Part shown: piece by piece, positions 2,680 to 5,029 of the stretch
Layout: each line of letters opens with the position of its first letter
Position numbering within the stretch: position 1 is the stretch's first letter
Assembly: GCA_020052215.1 (NCBI GenBank)
Contig: JAGVPN010000026.1
Location: 1 to 5,196 of the forward strand
DNA: 5,196 bases
Direction of reading: 5' to 3'
Source of the DNA: Syntrophobacterales bacterium
Lineage (GTDB): Bacteria > Desulfobacterota > Desulfobaccia > Desulfobaccales > 0-14-0-80-60-11
Notes under the pieces: generated by a model
What the model was told of the DNA's origin: nothing
Databases searched by the model: none
Seen by the model: the letters and a program-made list of their open reading frames with translations, nothing else
Translations under genes and position numbers: made by a program

Positions 2680-3147
2680 CTATTCCACCTCACCGGCTAT
2701 CCGGGCCAGGGCGTCTTTCACCTCCGTGTCTTCAGGCTCGGACAGGAGTTCGCCGATGAGGCGCCGCCTAAATTCCTGGATAAGCCGCTCCCCCTGCTCC
2801 AACCGGGCCAGCCGGGCCGGGCTGATGAAGCCGTCCCGGAGAGCCAGATTCCTCAAGCCCTGAATAATGTCCAGGAAACGCACGTCCTGGGGGCACTGAA
2901 AGGAGCAGCGGGCGCAGCGGGCGCAGTGCCAGAGAGCCGGAGAACTGAGCAGGGCCGCCCGCTGGCCGTAGAGCACCTGGCGGATGATCTGGCTGGGGCT
3001 GAACTCGGGCGTTAGTTCGCTCACCGGGCAGGTGGCGGTGCAGACCCCGCAGCCAAAGCAGCGCAACAGGTGCTGACAACCGGGTTCCGCGGCCAGTTCG
3101 TCTTTAAACTGGGGGTCCAGATCCTGAAGGTTTACGGTTTCGGTCAT
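2680..3147 (-). CDS. hdrC: HdrC-like heterodisulfide reductase subunit C
   Basis: Soluble electron-transfer subunit carrying two [4Fe-4S] clusters, expected to pass electrons between HdrA and a partner such as HdrB. The 155-residue protein has cluster motif CFGCGVCTATCP (30-41), the typical HdrC linker with SPSQIIRQVLYG (50-61), and second motif WHCARCARCSFQCPQ (73-87; C75, C78, C81, C85). There is no signal peptide or membrane segment, so this is a cytoplasmic HdrC and not the membrane-bound HdrE- or QmoC-type fusion. The acidic, charged C-terminal tail fits soluble HdrC proteins of Desulfobacterota. Start ATG 3147 follows GAAGG (3158-3154) with 6-nt spacing; the stop is TAG. The Fe-S protein gene ends 55 nt upstream, and hdrA begins 279 nt downstream across repeats. 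No hdrB lies on either side within the window. Confidence 0.9.
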   Translation of the reverse strand: MTETVNLQDLDPQFKDELAAEPGCQHLLRCFGCGVCTATCPVSELTPEFSPSQIIRQVLYGQRAALLSSPALWHCARCARCSFQCPQDVRFLDIIQGLRNLALRDGFISPARLARLEQGERLIQEFRRRLIGELLSEPEDTEVKDALARIAGEVE

Positions 3148-3202: not shown

Positions 3203-3652
3203 TCAAAACAGCTCAATGGCCTCGGTGGGGCAGTACTGGGCGCACTTGCTGCACTTCTCCGCCGCCTGGACCAAGCGGGTGCAAAGTTCCTGATGAACCA
3301 CCACCACCGTGCCGTTGATCATGTGGAAGACCACCCGGTCCTGGGGCCGGGGTCCCTTGCCCAGCCGGGCGGCGGCGCAGTTACCCAGATGGAATTCGCA
3401 CATGGCCACGCAGATGCCGCAACCGTTGCATTTTTCCGAGTCGATGCGCATCCCCGCGGCCGCGGCCAAAGGCCCCAGGAGTTCGTGCAGGGCCTCGATG
3501 AACCCGGCATAGTCGGGCTCGTGGAGGACCGGGCAGTCCTCCGGCATTAGTTCCCGGGCCAGGAGTGACCCGGCGAACTCGGCGCAGCTGAGGCCGCACT
3601 GCCGGCAATCGAGGCCGGGCAAAAATTCCAGAAGTTCTTCAGCCGTGGCCAT
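3203..3652 (-). CDS. Multi-cluster iron-sulfur protein (Fes/PF04060-like N-terminus plus ferredoxin-type motifs)
   Basis: Predicted cytoplasmic electron carrier of 149 residues with 14 cysteines. Residues 11-43 resemble the Fes cluster domain seen in RnfB and in the large corrinoid Fe-S subunit of CODH/ACS: LPGLDCRQCGLSC (11-23), then EDCPVL (38-43). The spacing is C-x2-C-x3-C, one residue shorter than the usual C-x2-C-x4-C. A ferredoxin motif CNGCGICVAMCEFH (75-88) has Glu where Pro usually follows the fourth Cys. A second set is C124 with CSKCAQYCP (134-142); C92 is extra. Two classical [4Fe-4S] clusters and probably a third N-terminal cluster are inferred. ATG 3652 comes 3 nt after the TAA of the FwdA-like gene, so the two are probably translationally coupled; the Shine-Dalgarno is weak (G-rich tract inside the upstream gene). 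I cannot assign a named family; it may link the FwdA-like protein to HdrC/HdrA. Confidence 0.85.
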   Translation of the reverse strand: MATAEELLEFLPGLDCRQCGLSCAEFAGSLLARELMPEDCPVLHEPDYAGFIEALHELLGPLAAAAGMRIDSEKCNGCGICVAMCEFHLGNCAAARLGKGPRPQDRVVFHMINGTVVVVHQELCTRLVQAAEKCSKCAQYCPTEAIELF

Positions 3653-3655
3653 ATC

Positions 3656-5029
3656 TTACCGCCCCACCCAGGGACCGCCCAGGCCTTCCTTAACCCAGAG
3701 GTTTTCCCGGCGCAAACTCTGGAACTGGCAGATTTCCGCCAGCATGGGGGTAGCCGCAGCCCCGGTTTGCCGGTAATACGTGGCCCGGGGCGCCTCGGGG
3801 TTCACCAGGCTAAAGTTGTCCACCACGACTTCCCCCGCCTTGAGCAGGGTACGGCAGCGGCCCAGGTAGTGGTGCCACTGACCGGGGGGGGCAGACGTCG
3901 GCACGTCATAGATGGCCACGTCGGCCCGGGCGCCTAAGCTCAGCCGGCCCCGGTCCTCAAGGCCCAGCAGCCGGGCGGGCAGGGCGCGGGTGGCCCAGAC
4001 CCACTCCGACAGCGAATAGCGCCCCGCTCCCAGGTCATCATGCCAATCCTGGCGGCGGGCCGCGTGGTCCCACAACCAGGAGAACAGGCGGGGATATTCG
4101 GTCACCGGCGCCTGGGCCAGGCCGGCCCCGGAAAAGGCCACTGAGGAACCCTGGCAGCCCAGGGCCAGGGACAAGGCCCGGCGCCCCGCGGCTTTATCCA
4201 CCGGCGGGTTGAGGTCCAGGGGGTGAAACCACCCCAGGTCTATCCGGACCGGCAACTGAGTCTGCCCATCCTTTCGTCCGGGGAGCATAAGCCCCAGGTC
4301 CCCGCTGGCGCCTGCTTCCAGGTGGGCCAGGGCGGCCGAAACCAACTCATCGTCCGTCAGCGCCTGGCCCAGGGCGGCCAGATGAAAGGCCGCAGGCTCC
4401 GGCAGGTTAGCCCGCAGCACCTCGGGAGAGGCTTCCAGGGACAGGGGCGACCCGGTTATCCGGGCCAGGTTGGTCAATACCTCCAGGGCCTTCTCCGGCT
4501 CGATGGCGCGGTGGGCATAAAAACCCTGCCGGTACCGGACAAAGGGCTCCACTACCCGGAAATTGAGGGCGCGGGTCTCGTCCAGCAGATGCAGGATGGT
4601 TTGCCCCACTTCCTGAAGGTGCTCCGGGGACCGCAACCACAGGTCGAAGTCTCGCAGGTTGATAACCAGGGAGGCGGAGGTGTCCACCACCGGCAGGCCC
4701 GCCAGCTGGCGCTGGACGTAGCCCGCGGTCCAGGCCGTCAAAAAGGGCTCGTGGACATGGGTATACCCCAGGAGGGCATAGCTTTCCCCCAATTCCCGGA
4801 GCGAGGGCGCCCCGTTGGCCAGGCGCAGGAAGTTGAGGCCGTAGGTGGCTACCTGCCCCCGAAGCTCAATCCCCGCGGGAGTCACTGTCTGACCCCGGGC
4901 CTCGATCTCCCGATCTGCTTCGGGGAACGGCGCCACCAGGCGGCCGTCTTCGATGTAGAGGTCGCCTGCCGCTCCGTCCCAGCCGCAGGTTGGATCATAC
5001 AGGCGTCCCCCGGCAATTTTAAGGCGCAT
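3656..5029 (-). CDS. FwdA/FhcA-like amidohydrolase-fold protein lacking metal ligands (probable pseudoenzyme)
   Basis: Resembles subunit A of formylmethanofuran dehydrogenase (FwdA) and of the formyltransferase/hydrolase complex (FhcA), which hydrolyse or form the formamide bond at a binuclear metal site. Visible FwdA-like parts of the 457 residues: N-terminal strand region with GRLYDP (8-13) and IEDGRLV (26-32), LGYTHVHEPF (87-96), PVVDTSASLV (113-122), TEYPRLFSWL (310-319), and the C-terminal RALPARLLGLEDRGRLSLG (348-366) with ADVAIYDV (369-376). Where FwdA has D-x-H-x-H, this protein has ELRGQ (55-59: Arg57, Gln59). The HIH segment becomes LSLE (196-199). The catalytic STDHP becomes SGAGL (300-304, Ala302 at the Asp position). 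It is about 100 residues shorter than FwdA, mainly in the middle. Hydrolase activity is therefore unlikely; a structural or binding role is inferred. Start ATG 5029 has GGAG (5042-5039) 9 nt upstream. It appears to be first in the operon. Confidence 0.82.
   Translation of the reverse strand: MRLKIAGGRLYDPTCGWDGAAGDLYIEDGRLVAPFPEADREIEARGQTVTPAGIELRGQVATYGLNFLRLANGAPSLRELGESYALLGYTHVHEPFLTAWTAGYVQRQLAGLPVVDTSASLVINLRDFDLWLRSPEHLQEVGQTILHLLDETRALNFRVVEPFVRYRQGFYAHRAIEPEKALEVLTNLARITGSPLSLEASPEVLRANLPEPAAFHLAALGQALTDDELVSAALAHLEAGASGDLGLMLPGRKDGQTQLPVRIDLGWFHPLDLNPPVDKAAGRRALSLALGCQGSSVAFSGAGLAQAPVTEYPRLFSWLWDHAARRQDWHDDLGAGRYSLSEWVWATRALPARLLGLEDRGRLSLGARADVAIYDVPTSAPPGQWHHYLGRCRTLLKAGEVVVDNFSLVNPEAPRATYYRQTGAAATPMLAEICQFQSLRRENLWVKEGLGGPWVGR

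Follow-up and report, generated by a model that had tools for sequence, protein, structure and literature searches.

FwdA, the metal-hydrolase subunit of formylmethanofuran dehydrogenase (Fwd), has a binuclear metal site formed by four histidines, a carboxylated lysine and an aspartate, and its residue Lys64 is described as a 'gate' (PMC11656701, available sections). A pseudoenzyme is already known in the Fwd family, namely FhcB, which is described as a cofactor-free scaffold in the available sections of PMC10100899 and PMC11656701. The type II HdrA clusters of archaea (ANME-2/3 and Methanosarcina) also retain a dead, non-catalytic subunit of the molybdopterin family, for which a structural role is proposed (PMC12054007, available sections). 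These molybdopterin-family proteins branch near FdhG and FhcB, are archaeal and adjoin FdhB and HdrBC, unlike those considered below, and the available sections of PMC12054007 make no mention of a dead FwdA. Bacterial relatives of Fwd are not all dead, since a FwdB with the tungsten ligand Cys118 is reported from Actinobacteria in the available sections of PMC7325909.

The bacterial gene set described here departs from each of these systems. Its FwdA-like protein is about 100 residues shorter than FwdA and FmdA of known structure (PDB 5t5i/5t61, 7bkb and 8rja) and, by alignment, retains neither the Lys64 gate nor any of the six metal ligands. The locus differs from formylmethanofuran dehydrogenase in having no FwdC above the cut-off, no FwdD-type domain and a FwdB without its tungsten ligand. 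In the Fhc complex, the A subunit is active and the B subunit lacks the cluster as well, and we know of no Hdr genes that form part of it. By comparison with FhcA and FhcB (PDB 6s6y), it is the A subunit that appears dead here, and B keeps its cluster cysteines. The gene types HdrA, HdrC, FwdA, FwdB, FwdF and FwdG are shared with the Fdh-Hdr-Fmd supercomplex of Methanospirillum hungatei (PDB 7bkb). Unlike the supercomplex, however, the present operon showed no HdrB-type, FwdC or FwdD gene, its HdrA has a double domain, and a centre that could reduce CO2 or transfer formyl groups is missing. We recognised no account of this gene set in a literature search whose scope left out most subscription journals and all preprints. 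Its distinguishing point is that one conserved bacterial gene set combines a tungsten subunit and a metal-hydrolase subunit that are both without ligands. Of the five groups examined, three have it beside Hdr flavoproteins. The FwdA site survives partly or wholly in neighbouring lineages, which makes the order of loss readable and offers a natural way to tell the wiring parts of a Fwd-Hdr supercomplex from those that do the chemistry.

The stretch of DNA that was analysed (the window, 5,196 nucleotides) makes up all of contig G000:C200, which belongs to a draft genome of 2.83 Mb that is 73% complete. It carries four genes, all on the minus strand. The gene for the FwdA-like protein (457 aa, positions 3656..5029) is separated by 3 bases from that for a 149-aa Fe-S protein (3203..3652), which combines an N-terminal PF04060 [4Fe-4S] domain with a FwdG-like C-terminal half according to Pfam and PDB matches. 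These are accompanied by genes for a HdrC-like protein with two CxxCxxCxxxC motifs (2680..3147) and for a HdrA2-like HdrA with two FAD domains, which is truncated by the contig end (1..2400). The gap of 279 bases between the HdrC and HdrA genes (2401-2679) exceeds the other intergenic gaps of the window. The window's own FwdB gene lies beyond the contig end, and all data on this subunit come from relatives. Homologues with taxon names and 75-79% identity come from bins labelled Desulfobaccales, Syntrophobacterales or Thermodesulfobacteriota, and homologue contigs are labelled Deltaproteobacteria, Desulfobacca, Syntrophobacterales or Syntrophales. Below, f1 denotes the window's family, f2 its order, and f3, f13, f40 and f71 other groups of the phylum.

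Under the labels 'formylmethanofuran dehydrogenase subunit A' or 'B' that many of them bear in source annotations, these proteins would be credited with a methanofuran chemistry that is likely beyond them. The FwdA-like protein of the window scores 108.8 bits against TIGR03121, the subunit A equivalog, which is under the NCBI cut-off of 392.75. It matches the amidohydrolase superfamily model PF07969 with 46 bits (cut-off 29.7) across residues 307-403 only. Comparison of predicted structures, as proposed in the preliminary description, indicates that the overall FwdA fold is retained.

That description held that all metal-binding and catalytic positions had been lost, and our alignments confirm this for the six positions Arg57, Gln59, Arg158, Glu199, Ala219 and Ala302. 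Alignment to 5t5i_A puts Arg57 (codon 4859..4861; this and all following codons on the minus strand) and Gln59 (4853..4855) in place of His57 and His59, as had been noted for the HxH motif. It also puts Arg158 (4556..4558) in place of the carboxylated Lys178 and Ala302 (4124..4126) at the catalytic Asp385, the latter again as first described. Alignment anchors are firm at 57/59, 158 and 302. Consequently, a supply of ligands from elsewhere in the ordinary site is rejected for these four of the six positions. The remaining two histidine positions are hard to align because of indels in the middle third of the protein; they correspond to Glu199 (4433..4435) and Ala219 (4373..4375), where predicted strands 5 and 6, respectively, end. 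The relative L041 has His at the positions matching both. The Lys64 gate aligns with Gly64.

A first homologue search found 396 proteins, of which the best 120 were listed. Full-length rows picked from this and one further list of matches gave an alignment of 98 rows with the window included, and 72 rows, again counting the window, constitute the window clade. The survey of homologues shows that the window copy is no lone outlier: Arg57, Arg158 and Glu199 each occur in 72/72 rows, Gln59 in 64 (His in one), and Ala219 in 69 (His in none), while position 302 is Ala in 60, Gly in 8 and Cys in 4. These three fully conserved replacements are among 71 of 457 columns that are invariant in the clade, as are the polar residues His91, Glu94, Asp116 and Glu161; His93 is present in 71 of the 72 rows. 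By comparison, positions 59 and 302 are about as variable as ordinary columns. His91-Val-His93 (4751..4759) forms an HxH on predicted strand 2 that is found in lineages without the canonical site. Gly64 is present in every row of three groups (72/72 in the window clade, 17/17 of the f13 type and 9/9 of the ANME-1 type). Two clade members lie outside the 98-row alignment. One, L032, has Arg57, Pro59, Arg158 and Glu199. The other, L034 (genome G006), has Cys57, Pro59, Val94, Ser158, Glu199, Gly219 and Leu302, and thus Arg57, Arg158 and Glu94 are not universal in the window's order.

The dN/dS ratio of the FwdA-like gene is 0.222-0.243 (Nei-Gojobori, window versus three relatives, 3/3 pairs), similar to the 0.168-0.221 obtained for two neighbouring genes in 4/4 comparisons, and shows that the gene is under purifying selection. 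Listed matches of the FwdA-like protein contain no internal stops. Because the loss is common to the clade, dN/dS resembles that of the neighbours and gene order is conserved among relatives, the protein is best described as a maintained pseudoenzyme, which agrees with the view originally taken of it. Decay confined to the window copy is rejected on the basis of Arg57 in 72/72 clade rows and the dN/dS of 0.22-0.24.

Three features go beyond the preliminary description: the FwdB partner is also without its tungsten ligand, the small Fe-S protein is FwdG-like, and other lineages keep the FwdA site partly or wholly. In relatives, the gene upstream of the FwdA-like gene encodes a FwdB homologue that scores 283 bits against TIGR03129 (cut-off 327.8). 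Among 88 aligned rows, picked from the best 120 of 262 homologues found, each of the four [4Fe-4S] cysteines is kept in 88/88. The position of the tungsten ligand Cys118 is never Cys (Phe 75, Trp 7, Tyr 3, Leu 3), that of His119 is Lys (60), Met (13), Gln (7), Arg (5) or another residue, and that of Arg288 is Ser (68), Ala (11), Thr (5) or another residue. The predicted fold (pLDDT 87.1, with one loop below 50) matches FwdB at TM 0.91. Another Foldseek match is NuoG of complex I. NuoG is a molybdopterin-type subunit with Fe-S clusters and no cofactor, and to our knowledge it belongs to a different complex that has no amidohydrolase-fold partner. The FwdB homologue of one genome from the same genus has a single in-frame TAG (G003:C232:37658-38896).

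The two subunits occur together. Matches of the FwdA-like protein are present in 23 of 59 genomes searched, or 22 after exclusion of G046, where the match is a 39-residue stretch only. In 20 of these 22 genomes, the FwdB homologue shares the contig (19 full-length, and partial in G039), and in the two exceptions, the window's genome and G018, the contig ends there. A full-length FwdB homologue of this kind without the FwdA-like protein occurs in 0/59 genomes. Canonical FwdA or FwdB elsewhere in the genome is rejected, since neither passes its cut-off in any of the 59 genomes; weaker matches, mostly to other enzymes, are present in 57/59 for each. FwdC (TIGR03122) likewise exceeds its cut-off in 0/59 genomes and has weaker matches in 50/59, none of which, among the matches listed, adjoins the locus in genomes with the FwdA-like protein. 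The FwdD-type domain PF01568, which is common in other molybdoenzymes, is present within 20 kb of the locus in 0/12 genomes (none among 67 matches listed), and a free FwdD might be encoded elsewhere. In contrast to these absences, electron-carrying subunits are represented. The 149-aa Fe-S protein matches the FwdG/FmdG structures 9sfi_U (E 5.6e-8), 5t5i_G (E 1.6e-6) and 7bkb_L (E 0.0036), and relatives have a FwdF-like polyferredoxin (NF042909, 94 bits, below the cut-off of 375).

Downstream of the module, relatives carry a HdrC gene and then a double-domain HdrA gene (1012-1057 aa; 1047 aa in L002). Several add a DUF3795 protein, the FwdF-like polyferredoxin and a HdrA2-MvhD fusion. The DUF3795 protein after HdrA is Cys-rich (L006:14454-14876) and has homologues in L004, L010 and L034. 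Hdr genes are present in 10/10 distinct f1/f2 loci that are long enough (L002, L004-L010, L032 and L034; L003 and L011 stop short of the Hdr region and are outside this count), and are near the module in 2/2 f40 and 4/4 f71 loci. The fetched stretches of f13 (0/3 loci, L047 spanning just 6 kb) and f3 (0/1, with a weak Fe-S match only) contain none, and HdrA is therefore not a constant partner. The HdrB-type CCG domain (PF02754) is found at the locus in none of 12 genomes among the matches listed. However, it has matches elsewhere in 12/12 genomes, one of them on the G028 locus contig about 20 kb away, suggesting that the operon lacks HdrB and the cell does not.

Other redox genes are found near the module outside the window's order. 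A cdhA-like gene (archaeal-type CODH/ACS alpha) adjoins it at L041:11351-14352 (f40) and L043:14831-17629 (f3), with scores of 538 and 489 bits, below the cut-off of 781. L041 also has a cdhB-like (epsilon) gene at 44 bits, and no cdhA-like gene was found near the module in L042 (f40). A cdhA above the cut-off occurs in 2/59 genomes (G037 and G051) and in no f1/f2 genome, and CODH was rejected as a constant partner for the window's order. In L033 (f13), where no Hdr gene was recognised, one contig encodes the FwdB homologue, a FwdG-like protein and the FwdA-like protein together with IorA/PorB-like genes, which are of the indolepyruvate/2-oxoacid oxidoreductase kind.

Members of the FwdA family (E ≤1e-20) are present in 31/395 genomes of the phylum, in groups f1, f2, f3, f13, f40 and f71, and their metal sites form a graded series. 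When residues are read in the order 57/59/158/199/219/302, the f40 locus L041 has HHKHHD, with all six ligands kept, and L042 has HHKHQD, these states coming from two of six f40 genomes. The f3 locus L043 has HHCWGS, the f13 type (G/A)x(R/H)EH(L/M) with Gly57 in 15/17 rows, f71 (A/C)H(Y/F)PR(R/Q), and the window RQREAA. A group of short FwdA-like proteins (P0147-P0156, 404-489 aa), of which P0148 is named as Methanophagales (ANME-1), keeps most of the six ligands. This ANME-1 type has HHKRHD in 4/5 rows of the tree, the fifth having Asn59, and Arg at the strand-5 histidine position in 9/9 aligned proteins. Position 219 is His in L041, in most ANME-1-type rows and in 17/17 f13-type rows. A quick tree built on 46 rows unites the lineages without a working FwdA site in one branch (SH-aLRT 99); in it, L043 and L046 have long branches, and the branching order among f40, the ANME-1 type and the rest is not fixed. 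Beside the bacterial FwdA relatives examined, f40 included, FwdB has kept the four cysteines and lacks Cys118 and His119 in 12/12 loci. The simplest order is thus that FwdB lost its tungsten site first and FwdA its metal site later, leaving remnants that differ per lineage.

What formate and formyl-methanofuran chemistry requires has been lost (the tungsten ligand, the FwdA metal site, the Lys gate, FwdC and, at the locus, FwdD), while what carries electrons (the FwdB cluster, the FwdG-like and FwdF-like proteins, HdrC and the HdrA flavins) has been kept. The simplest reading of this pattern is a scaffold and relay module, for which FhcB and the dead subunit of the archaeal type II HdrA clusters are precedents. 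With moderate confidence, we propose that the FwdA-like protein plays a structural, non-catalytic role in an electron-transfer complex derived from Fwd, which is probably linked here to HdrA and HdrC. A non-catalytic role as scaffold, cofactor binder or allosteric partner had been suggested at the outset; this is supported, and among the three, gene content favours the scaffold, acting with the relay. Presumably, the dead FwdA-like protein would keep the dead FwdB homologue positioned, in the manner of FwdA and FwdB in the parent complex. The clusters of the FwdB homologue, FwdG-like and FwdF-like proteins would then act as a wire that passes electrons to the HdrA flavins or away from them, and neither formate nor a formyl group would be made. 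The vacated metal pocket would be filled by Arg57, Arg158 and Glu199, probably as salt bridges. Such a module might have arisen stepwise, with the FwdB tungsten site, FwdD, FwdC and the Lys64 gate lost first and the FwdA metal site next.

Several points run counter to this reading. HdrA is not a constant partner, and Arg57, Arg158 and Glu94 are not universal in the window's order. Because CCG domains are encoded elsewhere in 12/12 genomes, a HdrB partner in trans, and hence a catalytic Hdr complex, is possible. Furthermore, the invariant polar residues exceed the needs of a spacer and could reflect a new active site or ligand binding. In the first case, a relocated metal or active site in the same barrel (His91, His93, Glu94, Asp116, Glu161 and Glu199) would catalyse another reaction. 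Besides the conservation of these residues across the window clade, position 93 speaks for this: it is His in lineages without the canonical site (71/72 clade rows, 16/17 of the f13 type, L043 and f71 4/4) and Asn in the ANME-1 type (9/9) and f40 (2/2), which retain all or most of that site. However, His91, Glu94 and Asp116 also accompany an intact canonical site and are no substitutes as such, and since the site-less lineages are one branch, His93 may reflect a single event. Moreover, L034 has Val94, L043 has His94, L044 and L045 lack Asp116 and f71 lacks Glu199. On balance, this explanation is unlikely. In the second case, a pocket of Arg57, Arg158 and Glu199 would bind an anion or cofactor and gate electron flow through the Hdr part. 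The replacement of metal ligands by two Arg and one Glu, all invariant in 72/72 rows, would give the pocket charged side chains. Yet the module is kept where the f13 type has Gly57, f71 has other residues and L034 has Cys57 and Ser158, and no cofactor or effector is known, so that we regard such a sensor as improbable.

A functionless relict on its way out is very unlikely. The ordinary variability of former ligand positions 59 and 302 and the in-frame TAG in one FwdB homologue would fit such a fate, but the dN/dS, the uninterrupted frames, the conserved gene order and the 71 invariant columns argue against it. Least credible is an alignment error that hides ordinary ligands at other positions: the indels blur two histidines, but the alignment is securely anchored at 57/59, 158 and 302, and L041 displays the kept state of all six positions.

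More tentatively, and extending the scaffold and relay reading, both catalytic subunits of a CO2-fixing Fwd complex might have become a plug-in, non-catalytic relay chassis, composed of a dead FwdB with its cluster, a dead FwdA and a FwdG-like protein. Its redox engine would vary: the chassis would dock on HdrA in f40, f71 and the window's order, on a CODH alpha subunit in f40 as well as f3, and in f13 on an oxidoreductase of the indolepyruvate type. Living lineages would still show the steps of the conversion. This broader scheme is less likely than not.

In several loci of the window's order, a gene for a cyclophilin-type peptidyl-prolyl isomerase is located between the genes for the FwdB homologue and the FwdA-like protein (L004:9376-9906, L005:9358-9906, L009:9342-9920, L011:2556-3083 and L034:7649-8182).
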